From assembly GCA_015227615.1 (NCBI GenBank), contig JAALGZ010000045.1, positions 233,603 to 297,602 of the forward strand: a stretch of 64,000 nucleotides of DNA, given 5' to 3'. Below, piece by piece: positions 48,241 to 60,434 of this stretch. Positions within the stretch are counted from its first letter, which is position 1. The number at the start of each line of letters is the position of its first letter. The notes under the pieces were generated by a model that did no database searches, was not told where the DNA came from, and saw only the letters and a program-made list of their open reading frames with translations. The stretch comes from Labyrinthula sp. Ha (Eukaryota > Sar > Bigyra > Labyrinthulida > Labyrinthulaceae). Position numbers and translations under genes: made by a program.

Positions 48241-48894
48241 AACAAGCTGTACTGGTTATCATTTACAGTAAAAACTAATGTTGTGAAGCTAGGTTCGACA
48301 CCTAACACAACCATGGAGTAGCATCGTAAGCTTGGACATCCATCTTTCAAGACAGTGATGGAGATGCCGAAGCATGGATTGGTTGATGGAGTTCCAAAAG
48401 AAATGTTCAAGAAATGGAATCAATGCTTAGAGTGTAACTTAGGAAAGTTGTCAGAAAAGATCACCCTTGGTACGACAAAAGTGCAAAAGTCTAAAGCAAC
48501 TAGAAGATTTGAAAAAGTTCATGTAGATCTTGTTGGACCGTTGCCAACCGGAAAAGGTGGGTTTAGATTCATGCTAACTCTTGTTGATGACTACACTAAG
48601 TACAAGTGGACGTTTTTCATTTGCAAGAAATCAGAAGTAACCGAGATGATTAAAGCTTGGTTGAAGAGGACGAACAATTTGACATCTAGGAAGCAGATCA
48701 ACTTTAAGACGGATCAAGGAAATAAGTTTGTTAACTCATCACTGAAGGAAGAATTTCAGAACCTGGGAGTAGTTGATGATGTGCCGCCAAAGTACCATCC
48801 CTCGATGAATGGGACAGTGGAACGTTGGAATCGCTCATTGCAGGATGGCTACAAAGTCCTGCTCATTGACTCTGGATTGACAGCTTATTACTAG
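48241..48894 (+). pseudogene. copia integrase (second element)
   Basis: The zinc-binding part has HRKLGHPSF (a TAG stands where the preceding Trp is usual) and CLECNLGK. The core has VHVDLVGPLPTG, then FKTDQGNKF and PSMNGTVERWN, so all three catalytic acidic positions (D, D, E) are visible. The frame stops at TAG 48892-48894, before the usual C-terminal region, which continues in scattered frames to about 49260. Confidence 0.85.
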
Positions 48895-49290
48895 CCTTAC
48901 GCTGCAAAGGTTTTACCTACTTACACAACAGACAATTTTCTCTTGTAACTCTGGAAGCGAAGACCCCTTTTAGGTTAATGTATCCAAGAAAACCTCAAGT
49001 TGGCCATCTCTTTGAGTTTGGAATATTGGGTGCAGCTAGATCTGGAAAACAGTAGAAGAAAGGTAAAAAAGGAATAAAGGCGATATTCTTGGGATATAGG
49101 AATATGGAGTACTTGGTATACTGGTTAGACACTAAGAAAGCGGGAACTTCATAGTCTGGTCAAGTTTTTAAACGGGTTATCAAGAATGAAGCAGTTTCAG
49201 GGAAAGCATATACGGAATTTAGCTTAATTGAGCAAAATGATATGGATGCCGAGATAAAGAACCTCAAGAAGAAGTGTAAAATGAACCATA

Positions 49291-50986
49291 TTGATCAAAA
49301 ATGACTCAACACCTCAGAGTGTCCCAATTGGATCTAGATTATCAGAAATTGATGCAGGTAACGTAGTTCAAGGGGAACGGGTTCGCAATGCTGTTGAATT
49401 TACTGCTAAAGCTCTTGAACAACTTTCTCCTAAAAAATTTGCGCAAATCACTGAAAGAAAAGACACAACTGAATGGTTAAAAGCGTACAAACAAGAAGTT
49501 GAAAGTTTGAAATGCATCGGCGAGTTTGATGTTGTCCAGTTGCGAGATGTTCCTGTCGGTGCGAAACCATTGCCATTGAAAGAGCTGTTCACCATCAAAG
49601 ACAGTGGGAGAAAGAAAGTTAGACTTGAACTAAGAGGTGATCTGGAGAAACCTGCTGACAATGAAGACAACCACATCCCCAACAGGTCATTTTGAGAATG
49701 TAAGGTTGTTGATCTCAGTTGCTGTATCAAAGGGTTGGAAGATCAGAAGTTTGGATGTGAAGAATGTATACCTCTACGGAAAGTTTGAGAAAGCGGTTTA
49801 CTTAAGACTTTCTGCTGGACACCCTAAGATCAATGGTAGCATCTGTTGAAAAACCAAATCCTCAATCTACGGTCTTCGAAGTTTACCTAGGAATTAGAAT
49901 GTTCGCATTGATGAGTTTCTAAAATATCTTGGATTCGTAAATTACCCCGTAGCTCCATGTCTGTACAAACGAAACAAAATGTTCCTGTGTTTGTTTGTGG
50001 ATGACATCCTACACATTGGAAAGAGTAATATGAAGTTGGATGAGTTTGAGCAACATGTAAAAAATGATTTGAGTTAGGAAGAGAGCTAAATCCAAGGATG
50101 TTTTTTCGACTTAAGTTAAAATACACTAGAGAAGGCATCCATGTTCAGCAACGAATGAAGATTGAGAAAAGGGAAGTGGTAGTTCATCTTTAGATGAGGA
50201 TTCTAAAAGTACCACTACCAGAAAAAATAAATTAAAGAACGCCTCAGGCAAACCATCAGTATATCTTAGACCTTTTCAATCTGTTCTAGCGAGCTTTCTG
50301 CGTATTGCTTTAGGAACTAGACCTGACATTTGTTTTGCTGTTCACGCAATGAGTAGAAGAACTCCATGTGCTACAACGACTGATTTGAAGCTAGTTAGAC
50401 ACGTGTTGAAGTACTTGGTAAACACAAAGAACTTGATCCTGTTTTATGAAATCAATAGTAAGGATGCTATAAAGCTTGAAATGGAGGTTGACGCATCATT
50501 TTCAATTGGACCTAAGAAGAAATCAGGTTACGGCTACTTGATCAAGGTTAACAATGCACCTATTTTATACAGATCTAAGTTGGAACCGTTAATAGCAATG
50601 TCATCTACGGAGGCAGAGTACATCGGAGTTGCAGAAGCTACCAACCACTCAGGTACATCGCTAATGTTCTATAATTTTTTCGGTTGAAGTACACGAAGCC
50701 AAACATTGCATACAATGAAAACATGGGAGCAATCTTAATTGGAAGCCCCAAAGGAAGTATTGATAGAGCCAAGCACATTGAACTAAAATTTCATGTTTTG
50801 CAAGGGTTGGTTAACATGGGAAAGAGTAATCATAGCTATAAAAAAACTAATGAGTCGCAGACCGACATGCTCACGAAACCATTCGGATTTTCGAAGTTAA
50901 AGATTTATATAGATGTTTTAATAGAAACACGTGCTAAAAAGAATAGTACAGAAGAAGAAGAGAACGTCTTGGTTGCTACTGAGTAA
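49291..50986 (+). pseudogene. copia RT and RNase H (second element)
   Basis: RT starts in 49291-49695 (TEWLKAYKQEVESLK, ...LPLKELFTIK). After a frameshift it shows KIRSLDVKNVYLYGKFEKAVYLRL (split over about 49735-49810), then the catalytic FLCLFVDDIL at about 49980-50010. RNase H has LEMEVDASFS, MSSTEAEYIG, IAYNENMGA, RAKHIELKFHVLQ and DMLTKPFGFSK. At least four breaks. Its motifs are closer to ordinary plant/fungal-type copia spelling than those of the first element. Confidence 0.85.
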
Positions 50987-51074
50987 TTTTTAATCTTGAG
51001 TACTACTAGTTTCTTAGGGCAGAGCACCTAATCAACTACGAATTTATCTATAAAACCTAAGACTCACTGCAACT

Positions 51075-53377: not shown

Positions 53378-53630
53378 TATAAACTATTCGTTTAAAGTCC
53401 AAAATATAAACTGTTTTTTGAAAAATTCTACGGCCTTAAAAAGGATAGCTTAATTTTTTTGTTCTCAAGGCAGTTTGCTGTGTAAATGTATAATAAGATG
53501 TAAATTAATAAACTTTTATTTCCAAGGTTCCCAAAAACTTAACGGTTATAGTGCAGTAAATTCTATACCAAAATATTAACAGCCAGGAATAGAATATATT
53601 CCAGTTTATATTTTAAAATCAAACTAATAC
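53378..53630 (-). repeat. 3' LTR of gypsy element
   Basis: Aligns with 60180-60434; long shared words include GATGTAAATTAATAAACTTTT and CTATACCAAAATATTAACA. A pyrimidine-rich stretch (TTCCTCATTC) just inside could be the polypurine tract of the element strand. Confidence 0.8.
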
Positions 53631-53649
53631 TTCCTCATTCTTATTACTA

Positions 53650-54190
53650 GAATTTGTTTCCTATTGCTAACCATCATAAACGGAGATTATTTTTCATGCT
53701 AAATGAACTCAACTTTCTAGTTTGCTTCTCAAAACGTGCTTCAATAATTTTGTAAAACCTCTCTGGTTTACAACTGTTGCCATCCACTTCTGCAAACACG
53801 TATTCTTTACCAAAATTTCTGGTTTTTAAAACACCCGGCAACTTTCCGTAAACGCCAATTAATAAACTTTCGCTACACTTTTGAGTAAGTTTTCCAAAGG
53901 TGGACCACAATTTCCATTTAGCAAATAATTTGATCCACAACAAATGATCCATGTTTTTAATATGGTTTTTTTGAAAATATTCATAGCTAAAGATCTCTTA
54001 CTCGGAAATTTACAGAGAAAACAACAGTATTCCTGATTAATTTTGTAAAATCCAATTTCCTTAAATCATGATCTGCCATGGTATCATATAAATTAGCTGC
54101 CCCTCTGATTGGGTTCTTTGTCATAAATCGATAAGGTGGATCTAAATGAATAGCCTCAAAAATTTATTTATCAGACTTCCTAATAAATCA
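53650..54190 (-). pseudogene. MT-A70-type adenine methyltransferase domain
   Basis: Read on the minus strand. VNFYRGDVSDLLGSLINKF (about 54150-54210) leads into HLDPPYRF at about 54142, the catalytic DPP(W/Y) motif, followed by GAANLYDTM. That is the spacing of MT-A70 proteins of the phage/bacterial kind (DPPW-x..GA-x2-HY-x-TM). Then come LLWIK (53940), SESLLIGVYGK, YVFAEVDGNSCKPERFYKIIEARF and, at the end, W-x-x-IGN (53657-53675). These are the family's WIK, GVKG, KP-x2-(F/L)Y-x-IIE and GW-x2-xGN landmarks in order. The DPPY part is offset by one frame from the parts on either side, and stops occur, so this copy is dead. Aromatic Tyr replaces the Trp usual in eukaryotic MT-A70. Confidence 0.8.
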
Positions 54191-54960
54191 CTTACATCAC
54201 CCCTATAGAAATTCACTTTAGGATGTATAATCTATTGTTTCATCATAGAATTCTTCTTTTTAAACTCGTACAGGTTAGTCAACTTGTTTCTTTTTACATC
54301 AAAAACATGTTTAGAAGCAGGTATCAATTTGCCAAATTACAAGCCAGGTCTTATTTCATTAATAGTATTAGTAATCTCAACTTTCCTTCTTTTGATTCCA
54401 ATTTCAAATATACCAGTTTATCTTAATTCTCTTTTCCAACCCTGAATTTGATTCCCAACTTTAGGCCGATCCACTGAAGGAAAAGATGTTGTTTCATTTT
54501 TTTGCTTCCATAAACTCTACGAACTGTGCAATTCCATCAGTTGAACTGCAATTAAATTACCTCATTATATCAAATTTTTAAGTTCGCTCTGTATTTAATC
54601 TATGCATCTTTGCATAACGTATTATCATGAATATTCGTAACTTAACTAAATGAGTTTCCCCGTTGAATTCCTTCTCAATAAAATATTTAGCACCACGTTA
54701 TTTGATATTGTCTTTGCGTACCTTGTCCAAACCAAGCTGCAATTTTGAATAAATGGAGATTACTTGTCTGCCTACCAGATGCTGCAATTCACCATATATC
54801 TGTTTTTTCGGTCTATTTTAAAGAAAATAAGCGTGCTTTTCATATTTAGAAAACCCAAAATTCAAAATACATTGTTTCAAAACATAAACTTCAATCTTTT
54901 TCTAACTTAGGAGCGGGTTGAACATGTGGATCATAAATTGACTAGTTGGTTTGAGCCTTA
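54191..54960 (-). pseudogene. N-terminal part of the methyltransferase ORF
   Basis: Coding-like pieces continue upstream of the methyltransferase domain: RPKVGNQIQGWKRELR, ASKHVFDVKRNKL, and further up YGELQHLVGRQVISIYSKLQ and KYFIEKEFNGETHLVKLRI. They change frame and contain stops. Their place after the integrase C-terminus suggests a separate ORF or polyprotein extension of about 430 residues ending in the methyltransferase. I do not recognise the N-terminal part; a DNA-binding or target-recognition role is only a guess. Confidence 0.5.
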
Positions 54961-55309
54961 AAAATTATCCAACTCTTTATCAGTAAGATTCAAATCACGA
55001 AGATCTATATTGTATTCATCTGCATTCCATATTTCAGCTTCTGGGTTTACTAATCGTAATCGCGTTAAGTCTGTTTTATCGCTGCAGATTTATTCTTCAG
55101 TAAAAAATCAACAACTAATTTTGATAAATCCTCAAATAATTGTTGTGCCGGGTCCTGTATCGATTCTTCTAATAAGAATACTCTGCAATGAACCAGTAAG
55201 AAATATTCATCGGTGTTTTTCTTAATCTTTACCAACTTCTTAACTTCAAGTTTTTTTCTGAATCATTAAAATAACAAATCTCCGTTTTTGAAAAAGGTAA
55301 AAAATGTGA

Positions 55310-56390
55310 TGGGGGTGTAAAATATCATTCTATATGCATATACTTCTTCTTCATCTCCAAATAAATTCTTTAACAAATATAAGTACGACCCCAATTGTTG
55401 AATGATCTGAAAAGAATCTGTCTACTGAAACTTAACCTTTGAATCCCATTTCGGTTTTCTAACTAATACAAACTCTCCAGTGTGAAAATTCGCCGGAGTT
55501 AGATTATATTTCTTATTGTATAGAGCATTTTCGTATTGTCTTGGCCGCTCGGCAAATAAGAACGCCATCTCTTAGTATTTTTTTATTTTCCCTTCTAGCT
55601 CTGAATAAACTTCATTAAGCTTGCTTAATTTAATAGATGCCAGCTTCAAGTTCAGTTCCCTTCCCACAGGGTCTTTTCTGGGTTTCTTACCCAACAATAT
55701 CTGAAACGGCATGAGATTATTTCTGCTCCTCAAAGGCTTCGAGTTAAGGTATTATTGTACCTGCACTAATAACTCATTCCAATCTGCAACCTTTAAATTT
55801 TATTCCGAAATTAAAGTTCTTAAATTCTTCAAGATTTGCCTATCTTGGATTTCTGTGGCTCCATTCGTGTAAGGTTAATAGGTCATTGTAAACTTTTGAC
55901 TTGCTCTACTTTGTCTAACAAAAGCATCTACAGCTACATTTACATAATGTGATCCCTTGACAGATAGTAAAATAAAATCATCTGCTAAATCAGAGCGGGT
56001 GTGCCATTCCAATAAAATATTTATAACGTTTGTTATACTGACATCCTTTAAATTCTTCAAAATAGTAACTCTTGACAAAGCATCTATTAAGGTCAGCATA
56101 TAATCTTCCTCTGTCTAAATGTACAAATAATCTGACATCAAAACTGTTCTACATTCACTTGGAAATTAATTAATAGCCAGAGGTCTCCTTATAACCCTTG
56201 ATGGACGTTGGTAATGTAAATATTGACTTTTTGATCTCTTTGCAGCTTCTGTAAATATTTTTTTAACTTCTTTAGAATTCTTAACGTAATTAGCTGAAAT
56301 CCATTTATTTCCCTGGTCCGTTTTCCCATGGTTGAAGTGTAAATGTGTATTAACAATTACTGGCAAAATTAAACTTTTTGTCACGAACAA
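55310..56390 (-). pseudogene. gypsy integrase
   Basis: The zinc-binding region lies in 56166-56390 (THLHFNHGKTDQG..., with the usual second Cys pair lost). The core in 55875-56099 has MLTLIDALSRVTIL, then KGSHYVN where DNG-x-F is usual. Past a TAA it reads PYTNGATEIQDRQ with the catalytic Glu. The C-terminal SH3-like region is at 55320-55560 (FHTGEFVLVRKPKW). At least two catalytic-site changes and several stops. Confidence 0.75.
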
Positions 56391-56632
56391 CTTATTTTTA
56401 TATTTCTTAAAGTATTTTATTTGAAACTCAGGTCTTTACTTTGTAAATTTAGACAAAATGATTCATCCATTTCCAGCCAAGTATCTCCGTACTTTAATGT
56501 AAAACCTGCATTGCCTAAACCAACATGAACCTCACCCAACTTCTCCGAAAAATGTTGAATATTAAAGTGTTATACAGTTGCAACTCCAACTAGAACTTCG
56601 TCAGATTCCACCCTATAAAGCTCAAGGCTATA

Positions 56633-58526
56633 TCAACGAGATAATATATCGGCAGCCACATTCTGCTCTCCAGGGATGTGGGGTACTTCTAAACAAATAT
56701 CTTGAAAGATCAAAATCCAATACGTCAACCTTTCAGAATATGATTTTATAGAGGCTTTGATTGGGTTAAAATATAGTATAAGTTTTATGATCTGTAAAAC
56801 CGGTCTTTCTTTTCTCAATTGATTTCAAAAAAAAAATAGGTGTGTTTCGGCGATGTGATGACTACTTGGAATAGTTCTTTAGAAGAAATATGACAATTTA
56901 AAGAACTATTCCTATTCCTGAACGTGCCAGAAGCCATTGCGATTACATCATGTTTAGAATTCATGGGAAATTTTAACTTAATTTCTTCAGCTGTTTGACA
57001 AATAAATAGCTCCAGTAAAAATCTGGATCATCTACGAATAAAACCAGATCCAACTATTGATCATAATAATCTAGTGCGTTAGAGAAGAACAACCTAACTT
57101 CTTTCATTAATTTATCATAATTATGATTCATCTCTTCGCTCCAATCCAGAAGTACCTTCGTTCTTTCTAACTTTTATGTCTACCGTAAATATTGAATTCT
57201 CTTGTCATTCTTGTTCTTAACTCCGAAAAACCTGATAATATCTTTGAGATCAAATTTCCTAAATAAATTAACTGTGCTAACTTGTACACATAGCTAGGAT
57301 TCGGTCTCTCCATTAACTTCCTTAAATAAGTGTCATCCAAAGAATAACCACCTTTTGTCAATTTGTGTCCACAAAATACTGCACTTTGGGCAATTAGCTT
57401 ACATTTCCTTATATTCAACCTTAATCTGTTACTTATAATAAACTTTGCAAAACTTCTCAATAAAGTCATGTATTTCATCACATCCAAGGCAAATAAAATA
57501 ATATCACTGATCAATTGTAAGACATGGTTGGCCAATGATATGTCGGTGTTGAAACATATGTAATTACCCTTTGAGAAAATAAAGACAGGGTATTGCACCA
57601 AACCTTGGGGGGGGGGCTCCTCTAAACGAGTAAGCCACACCCCAAGGCAATCCAAAAGTAAATAAATGCTGCGAGTTGCGTTGCGTTGGCAAACAATCAA
57701 ACCCGATTAACAGGTCAAATGATCCAAAGACAGTGTTTCCTTTTATCTTAGCGACCTGTAGATCAATATTCGGTAAGTTGTTCACAACTTTTTGAGTGAT
57801 TGCGCTTAATAGCCTGAAATCAACTACCATTAGATATTTTTAGGTCCTTTTATTGGGACTGCAAGAGCTCTCATGCATGTTGTTGGATCACCATTAACCT
57901 CAACAATATTATTTTTATCATCTGTTCCAATTTTTTCTTCATGAACTCATGTTTTTCAATATCAGGAAAAATGACATTAGAAACTTCTACTGGTGTTAAC
58001 TCCATTACATAACATTTTATATGTTTTAGAAGAGATAACTGTGTTGGAGGATAAATCATCACCAAAAACGGCTATATATTTTAAAGTCAAATCATCAAAC
58101 TCGTCTTTTAAATTTTTATTTTTTTCCAAATATCTGAACAGGAATACCTTTCAGCTTCTTCTTCAATATGTCTTTCAATCTGATTAAATCTGCCTCTCTA
58201 GTTGCATCTAAGTTTTCTCCAACACCAGTCAGCTCCTCTAATTATGCATCATGACTAGAACTAAATACTACAGGCTTCGGCCACGTGTCTTCTTCTTCAA
58301 AATTTATTTTATTTACCTCTACTGCCAACACTTCAATTATTTCTTTCTGCAATTCCATGGGATTTTCAAATCCAGATTCGCTAAAGGTGTATGAGCTAAC
58401 CGTCGTTGCATTAGTGAAATCATATTCAACATCTCCTAACACATTGCTCTTTAACCAGCTTGCTAAATAAGCTCTTTCCATTGTAATAAATTCATTAGCA
58501 TCATTCATTTCTTTAAAGGGTTTCAT
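56633..58526 (-). pseudogene. gypsy RT and RNase H
   Basis: The RT entry region is at 57871-58065 (PPTQLSLLKHIKCYVMELTPVE...IEKHEFMKKKLEQM). The palm follows with VVDFRLLSAITQKVVNNLPNID (57830 and below), then GLPWGVAYSF, then in 57167-57700 the strand that normally reads Y-x-DD but here is LISDIILFA, so the first catalytic Asp is gone. KLIAQSAVFCGHKLTKGG follows, as expected. RNase H ends with HIPGEQNVAADILSR (56633-56680), a classic gypsy ending. A Glu-rich piece at 58242-58526 precedes RT. A run of eight G near 57608 marks one frameshift. Confidence 0.85.
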
Positions 58527-58599
58527 CTATTTCCGAACTTTTTCTGTTAGCTTAGAAAACTTTCCATTTCCTGTGTTTTTTAATCGTCGGGATAAAATC

Positions 58600-60142
58600 T
58601 GTACAGGATTCAAACCGTGGAGTTTAAACCTCCTTTACTATTAAAAGTTTTTCCAGTTCCTTACCTGTTGAACTAGTAACCCTGCCACAGCTCCCAACGA
58701 ATAATCTCCGAAACCCGGAATTCGTACTCAGGGTAATAAATGATTAAACTTAAAAATAGGATATAAATTCCCAGAAGACACTCTAACAAATACCTTCCTC
58801 CTAGTCTCTTCTATCTTCCAACAATAATTCTCAAGTAAATTCTTTGCTCCTGAAGTTTTCTTAGCTCAGTAATTCAGGATGTCATCTACAACTATTTGAC
58901 TCTTTCTCTTTTCTAGCATCAATTCAGCTTCAACATGATTAACCTTATTCTCAACTACATCCCACACCTCTGCATTTGCAACATCAGTGTATTCATTTAA
59001 AATATTTCATCAACTGATCCCGTAGCAACGACTTTCATAATACCCGTCTCTACATCTTCGACTGTATATTCTTTAACCGACGTGATTTTATTAGATGTAA
59101 AAGTGGATCTCTCAGCCGGTCTCTTAAAACTATTTCCCCGTCCCTTTTTTTATTTTATTTCCACTTTGTTAGTCTTTTTCTTAAAATCTCTCCATCTGGT
59201 TTGGACTGCGGAGATGCCTTTTTTATTTTTATTCCTAATTAATTTCAACCACATCCAACATTTAAAGCTTTTGTGTCCATAAGAGCAGCAATGATTTCAC
59301 AGATCTGGGTCATCATTAGAAGATTGTTTTGGGAATAAGAATGAAGTTTTCTTTCTCCTTTAGTATTTACTTCGCTGATTTCAATTGAATTATACTCTAT
59401 AAGCGTCCCTAACTGTATCTTCCTGAAATTAACTCATTTTTTTCATCTGAGTTCTTACACACAATGGAGGTAAACAATTCATGACATAATTTTGCAATTG
59501 AATGTGATCAACATCGGTCAAAGCATGGTTCAAACTGAGCCTACTTGCCTCTGCCCAAGTATATTTAGGTAGTTTAACGAAGATTGCTAATGGAATCTTT
59601 TTCTTATTGAGTTTTGTAGTGGAGGATTGTAACTTAATAGTTTCCCGAACTTCACTAAAAAGAATTTTTATCACATCTTCTTCCCTTAGACTAAAATTGT
59701 ATTCTACATTTTGGGAAATTCTCACTTCAGCTTCCTACAAATCTTGTTAATTCATTTCCAGTAAAAGCATCTTCAAATAATCCATAAGATCTTCATTAGT
59801 TCCTGCAATCTCCAATCTTTCAAAGTGAACTAAAAGATTTAAATCCACGAATTGTGTCGAGTTAATTTCTCTCTTCTGTTGTAAAGACAGCATCTCGTGT
59901 TGATAAATAAACTTCTCTACACTCTTTCTTACGAGAACTTTTAAATCATCGACCTTGAAATCTTGACAAATCATCACACCTTCTTCATAATTTTACTTAA
60001 TTGCTTTTCCTTGGAACTTAACTGTAAAACTTCCATAGCCCTTCTTGTTGAATCCAAAGTCTGTTGCATACTTTCATAAAGGGCCACCATCTGCCTCTGA
60101 TTTAAAAGGCGTTTGGACTCATATTGATCTACTCCAGACATT
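58600..60142 (-). pseudogene. gypsy gag and protease region
   Basis: A start at ATG 60142 gives MSGVDQYESKR... and a Gln/Leu-rich helical N-terminus. It shifts frame near 59985 into 59747-59977 (a helical gag segment), then 59429-59725. A CCHC knuckle (NHCCSYGHKSFKC) is at about 59270-59310, with the first Cys codon changed to TGA. A possible protease relic is near 58690. Order and spacing fit gypsy gag. Confidence 0.65.
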
Positions 60143-60179
60143 CTCTAAAACTTCAAAAATATCAAGTCACAGAGAATAT

Positions 60180-60434
60180 TGATAAATATTAGTTTATAGT
60201 CCAAAAAATAAACTTCTTTTTATAAAATTCTACGAACTTTAAGAAGGACAACTGTATCGTCTTGTTCTCAAAGTAGTTTACTGTGTAAAAGAGGAACAAG
60301 ATGTAAATTAATAAACTTTTCTTTCCAAGACTTCCTTAAAACTTAACGGTTCTATTTCAATAAATCCTATACCAAAATATTAACAACTAGTAATAGAATA
60401 CATTTCAAGTTATATTTCAAACTCGAACTAACCA
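60180..60434 (-). repeat. 5' LTR of gypsy element
   Basis: Starts TG at 60180 and ends near ACCA at 60434. Homologous to 53378-53630. The primer site just inside could not be assigned to a tRNA. Confidence 0.8.

Follow-up and report, generated by a model that had tools for sequence, protein, structure and literature searches.

A dead Ty3/Gypsy-type retrotransposon copy from a lineage whose Pol frame ends in a p1-like Myb domain and an MTA1/AMT1-like methyltransferase domain, a module that may label element DNA with methyl-adenine

Retrotransposon-encoded methyltransferases have been described previously. In KnitGypsy-Dnmt3 from Klebsormidium (de Mendoza et al., 2018; PMC5890265, of which part of the text was available), the methyltransferase likewise lies inside a Gypsy Pol and is under purifying selection across copies, but it is a C5-cytosine enzyme of the Dnmt3 type, whereas the enzyme reported here is of the adenine type (MT-A70) and carries a fused p1-like Myb domain. 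As described in the same excerpt, DIRS elements with a Dam-type enzyme also encode an adenine methyltransferase; these elements combine Dam with a tyrosine recombinase, in contrast to the rve integrase, LTRs, chromodomain and MT-A70 domain found here. The preliminary description of the present DNA had named cytosine methyltransferases and the Dam-type enzyme of DIRS as known passengers of retrotransposons, and both are indeed published (PMC5890265, same portion). At E 0.1, a Pfam scan of five long frames from our elements listed MT-A70 and no family of cytosine methylases; it also listed no tyrosine recombinase family, with rve present in the same frame in all five.

Two further systems invite comparison. 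The ciliate MTA1c/AMT1 complex (PMC9174199 and PMC12695648, each available in part) shares with our elements an MTA1-like catalytic domain and a p1-like Myb domain, but in MTA1c these are separate proteins that act with MTA9 and p2, whereas here the two are fused in Pol, and we detected neither a p2 nor an MTA9 domain in the elements. The AlkB-type m6A demethylase of an orchid Ty3/Gypsy element (PMC9289625, partial text) is likewise a methyl-adenine enzyme captured by Gypsy, but it has the opposite chemistry (removal), an RNA target and an additional ORF of its own, unlike the Pol-fused methyltransferase described here. In the open-licence PMC literature, as far as its partial coverage extends, we found no report of an MT-A70 domain or an MTA1-p1 module in an LTR element.

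The window, by which we mean the whole stretch of 64,000 nucleotides analysed, contains an old and broken element of the Ty3/Gypsy type that spans 53379-60431 on the minus strand and is composed of the following parts.

53379..53627, minus strand: 3' LTR, matched part, 81.3% identical over 251 bases to 60182-60431
53650..54160, minus strand: MT-A70 (MTA1/AMT1-like) methyltransferase domain, frameshifted, with DPPY; Pfam PF05063 and tblastn with L044
54707..54892, minus strand: p1-like Myb domain remnant; tblastn 2e-8 with element Myb queries, the element Myb profile matching MTA1c p1
55101..55250, minus strand: chromodomain region, approximate, taken from the L021 alignment; covered by a tblastn match that aligns L021 residues 834-1283 with 56420-55071
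55878..56144, minus strand: integrase core remnant; tblastn 2e-22
56827..57009, minus strand: RNase H remnant; tblastn 2e-12
57365..57857, minus strand: fragmented reverse transcriptase remnant; its pieces match the reverse transcriptase of L061 (C88:1017223) with 79% and 60% identity, 1e-54
59183..59983, minus strand: gag remnant; tblastn with the gag pieces of L033, L034 and L037, best 1e-24
60182..60431, minus strand: 5' LTR, matched part, 81.3% identical to 53379-53627

The Ty3/Gypsy frame that the preliminary description had drawn around the methyltransferase stands: the reverse transcriptase (RT), RNase H and integrase (INT) are on the same strand, with LTRs on either side, and the element domain queries place RT at 57857-57368. 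The Myb-like domain at 54892-54707 had been missed. In the window copy, tblastn gave no separate chromodomain match at 1e-3 and, with the element domain queries, no protease.

The MT-A70 domain that had been proposed for this element is also present. The Pfam model matches the window ORF 53674-53997 (minus strand) with an E value of 1.8e-6 and 28.4 bits, above the cut-off of 23.9. As a second query we used the methyltransferase of L044, a related element (C88:1021123) with a stop-free frame of 2164 residues, which matches the window in two frames, 53991-53656 with 78% amino-acid identity and 54160-54005 with 75% (tblastn, E 3.5e-68); at the DNA level, 54219-53607 and L044 share 80% identity over 617 bases. 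The division of the domain over two frames places a break between about 53992 and 54004, so that the copy is dead, as had been stated. The window copy is absent from the 150 best-scoring MT-A70 places of the genome. A second retroelement remnant, Copia-like by eye, was noted at window positions 48280-50990 on the plus strand, with an RNase H-like frame at 50166-50687 and a weak integrase match at 48280-48885.

The genome searched is the 50.8-Mb eukaryotic assembly from which the window is taken. With clan competition, Rfam assigns its SSU rRNA to the eukaryotic model at 1272 bits, the microsporidian model reaching 602 bits, and a microsporidian source was rejected on that basis. The Pfam search yielded at least 150 MT-A70 places (the best 150 of 354 first-look candidates), and all 150 places listed pass the Pfam cut-off. 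The original claim was said to depend on intact relatives, and stop-free long frames are numerous: for 53 of the 150 listed places the open frame is 1000 residues or longer, and for at least 27 it is 1900 residues or longer. Among the matches listed, at least 124 of the 150 MT-A70 places are preceded, on their own strand, by a match to Myb or rve. With the Tetrahymena p1 segment alone as the query, at least 150 Myb places were found, at least 101 of the 150 listed having MT-A70 on the same strand 505-992 bp further downstream; in 57 of those 101 listed pairs the open-frame length is equal for Myb and MT-A70. At least 36 of the 150 listed rve places have a listed MT-A70 within 4 kb, a figure that gives no count of module-less Gypsy elements because the rve family also spans other superfamilies and only the 150 best matches of each family were compared. 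In IMG/VR, 17 stretches matched a pattern, two of which encode a relative with 28-30% identity. We also noted 57 Pfam actin-family matches in genome G000, several of which have equal scores and are clustered on C24.

For closer comparison we fetched 20 stretches: the window copy and 19 others (one of 5.9 kb, the rest of 10 kb) picked for a high MT-A70 score or a long frame. According to tblastn, the order RT-RNase H-INT-Chromo-Myb-MTase is found on one strand in 19/19 of these loci, the RT being truncated by the stretch end in two; because the domain queries came from five of the 19 loci and several copies are near-identical, these are not 19 independent cases. The methyltransferase is on the same strand as RT-INT and downstream of it in all 19, in keeping with the position behind the integrase that had been claimed for the window copy. 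A further 20 methyltransferase domains were fetched, all 20 without stops, and RT is at the predicted position in 14 of 15 further elements. A protease is present in 18 of the 19 loci, the remaining stretch stopping just past RT. We also observed that the aspartic protease lies between Myb and the methyltransferase in 14 loci (L009-L020, L022, L023) and before RT in four; such a relocation of the protease within one lineage is unusual.

Given that the window copy is dead and frameshifted, its methyltransferase might be viewed as a fragment of a host gene that landed by chance between the integrase and the LTR of a single decayed element. The same domain order in 19/19 loci, together with the 80% DNA identity of the window methyltransferase to that of another element, speaks against such an accident, to which we give practically no credence. 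Between LTRs that resemble each other, the module architecture is found repeatedly in long open frames.

The assignment of these elements to the Ty3/Gypsy type is based on several features. Flanking direct LTRs of 364-700 bp, 96.5-99.7% identical, were found in 6/6 elements tested. The integrase is downstream of RT-RNase H in 19/19 loci; in Copia it is upstream. Pfam RVT_1, RT_RNaseH and rve are found in all five long frames scanned, rve being under its cut-off in two, and Chromo is likewise found in all five, above its cut-off in two, with a chromodomain detected by tblastn in 19/19 loci. Five of six gag pieces contain a CCHC zinc knuckle pattern. Target-site duplications of 4 bp accompany five of the six elements: GCTC, CCGT and ACTT are exact, and GTGC and GAGA were read by hand once the LTR alignment had been trimmed, while none was found in the remaining element tested, C2:533077. 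We conclude that the window element is a Ty3/Gypsy-type chromodomain LTR retrotransposon, a member of a large and diverse lineage.

The start of reverse transcription in these elements deserves a separate remark. A tRNA-type TGG primer start next to the 5' LTR is absent at the 6/6 junctions examined. At the junction of the 5' LTR and the primer site we noted a perfect palindrome of 14-18 nt in 6/6 elements (L032, L033, L034, L035, L036, L037); among 2000 places drawn at random in each stretch, 12-28 have an equally long palindrome, draws that cover the junction itself being counted as well. The junction palindrome without TGG hints at an unusual mode of priming or dimerisation, and other priming modes exist in the superfamily.

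Comparison of the element methyltransferases with solved structures indicates that they are nearest to MTA1 from Tetrahymena, a DNA 6mA writer, rather than to METTL3. A profile of 17 elements scores 197 bits with MTA1, 134 with METTL3 and 78 with METTL14; the same profile gives 48 bits with 7cv6 ('Methyltransferase-like protein 2', which we take to be a METTL4 relative) and 46 with MTA9. One group of nine elements shows a narrower margin between MTA1 and METTL3 (188 versus 156 bits). When the profile is built from the last ~480 residues of five elements, MTA1 scores 161 bits, METTL3 81 and p1 46, with MTA1 and p1 matched at separate positions. As a check on the helical, p1/p2-binding domain of MTA1, the methyltransferase-only chain scores 188 bits, against 184 for a longer chain to which the upstream region is aligned as well, so that this region adds nothing to the score. 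Separately, a profile of 13 Myb domains from the elements matches MTA1c subunit p1 with 95 bits, the next protein scoring 43; the general Myb model of Pfam finds a match in only one of five long frames, just under the cut-off. The p1-like Myb domain is in the same frame as the element methyltransferase. With the methyltransferase nearest to MTA1 and the Myb domain nearest to p1, each Pol chain carries domains that resemble two subunits of one complex, the one that writes 6mA in DNA.

These comparisons bear on the target of the enzyme, which the preliminary description had left open between DNA and RNA. METTL3 belongs to the MT-A70 family and is the second-best solved match of the element methyltransferase, and an enzyme within the polyprotein would presumably be packaged with RNA; it is conceivable on these grounds that the module places m6A on element RNA, protecting the genomic RNA or aiding its packaging. 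MTA1 outscores METTL3 in every profile tried, however, which disfavours an RNA-type METTL3 origin, and the fused Myb domain resembles p1, which together with p2 builds the DNA channel of MTA1c (PMC9174199, in the part available). We regard methylation of element RNA as improbable; relatedness to MTA1 and the p1-like Myb domain favour DNA as the target.

The genome also contains candidates for host genes of this machinery. L008, with a frame of 327 residues and 250 bits to MTA1, is probably a host MTA1 gene; no Myb, chromodomain or protease match was found in the 1.5 kb upstream of it, the fetched stretch ending short of the positions expected for RT and integrase. Two p1-like genes, L038 and L039, have neither MT-A70 nor rve nearby among the matches listed. 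Together, the MTA1 candidate and the two p1-like genes suggest that 6mA is native to the organism. The p1-like frame of L039 (1336-2487, 384 residues) was seen to have a long C-terminal extension that is absent from L038 (227 residues).

The history of the methyltransferase is largely shared with that of RT. For 28 elements the RT and methyltransferase trees give a Mantel r of 0.82, which none of 5000 permutations reached (maximum 0.34). The two trees have 12 of 25 splits in common; each of them (RT, methyltransferase) also contains two splits, supported at 95 or more, that the other lacks. A support of 72 sets the element methyltransferases apart from METTL3 and from the MTA1 of the host and of ciliates, and a rerun recovered this separation in 665 of 1000 bootstrap trees; with a separation as weak as this, a single capture is a plausible reading rather than an established one.

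Selection on the methyltransferase of the module is mostly purifying. In six close pairs, three of which share members, its dN/dS is 0.20, 0.15, 0.44, 0.18, 0.06 and 1.03; the constraint is clear in four (0.06-0.20), and the values of 0.44 and 1.03 rest on ten and nine changes, respectively. The RT ratios of the same pairs are 0.03-0.39 and lie below that of the methyltransferase in 6/6. Five more distant pairs have a saturated dS, a single methyltransferase value (0.21) being the exception. Among 38 methyltransferases the catalytic motif is DPPW in 20, DPPY in eight and another sequence in ten, these ten including DPAW in five related copies; the first D is retained in 38/38.

That some families have an altered motif and that the methyltransferase is less tightly constrained leaves room for a tethering role. 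The p1-like Myb domain, chromodomain and methyltransferase fold might attach to host MTA1c or to promoter chromatin rich in 6mA and so steer integration, methylation being secondary or lost. The location of the module directly behind the integrase and chromodomain would suit such a function, as would the departures from DPP[WY] in 10/38 methyltransferases and a methyltransferase dN/dS above that of RT in every close pair. Against this, DPPW or DPPY is kept in 28/38, the aspartate is invariant and four of the six pairs show clear constraint on the methyltransferase. We consider a module that serves mainly as a tether to be rather unlikely.

In our view, the dead Gypsy copy in the window belongs to a lineage that has probably captured a p1-like Myb domain and an MTA1/AMT1-like methyltransferase, with which it would mark its own DNA with 6mA and delay silencing. 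A Pol polyprotein ending in these two domains, in that order, would constitute a captured DNA-adenine-methylation module, with which the element could supply the MTA1 and p1 functions as one protein while borrowing MTA9-type and p2-type partners from the host. Adenine, probably at ApT, would be methylated in the element's own cDNA or in a fresh insertion. Because 6mA in AMT1 organisms is a mark of open chromatin under transcription, a newly inserted copy would resemble active host chromatin and its silencing would be delayed. We infer from the sequence that the methyltransferase is catalytically active, so that such elements may be able to label their own DNA with methyl-adenine, and we infer protection from silencing as the consequence. 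The high copy number (at least 150 places) could yield much enzyme, and the module might act in trans, re-marking host chromatin genome-wide or targeting rival elements rather than its own DNA. Retroelement proteins usually act in cis, and we find action in trans highly improbable.

Our proposal of a self-marking module follows from the published roles of MTA1c/AMT1, in which p1, p2 and MTA9 take part and 6mA is found near active starts. In AMT1 organisms 6mA lies at ApT near active starts, and p1 and p2 occur only with AMT1 (PMC12695648, partial text). Two published observations count against self-marking: transposons are without 6mA enrichment in published maps (PMC12695648, same portion), and in Tetrahymena SAM binding by MTA1 requires p2, while the enzyme acts together with MTA9, which has a stabilising role (PMC9174199, in the excerpt available). 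As to the origin of the lineage, we see an about even chance that one ancient Ty3/Gypsy element took up host MTA1 and p1 as one polypeptide and then radiated into many families, its self-deposited 6mA acting as a password for 'self, active chromatin'.

According to the accessible part of a 2025 survey, the eukaryotic MT-A70 families are relatively static (PMC12695648). Here many element families carry an AMT1-type enzyme as a mobile passenger, accompanied by a p1-like cofactor. The arrangement is a natural fusion of two MTA1c subunits and the mirror image of the retrotransposon-borne cytosine methyltransferases. Should a single capture and a 6mA password prove true, these elements would encode a natural 6mA writer that consists of one chain. 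Through these elements it becomes directly testable whether a genomic parasite can forge 6mA as an 'active, do not silence' mark.
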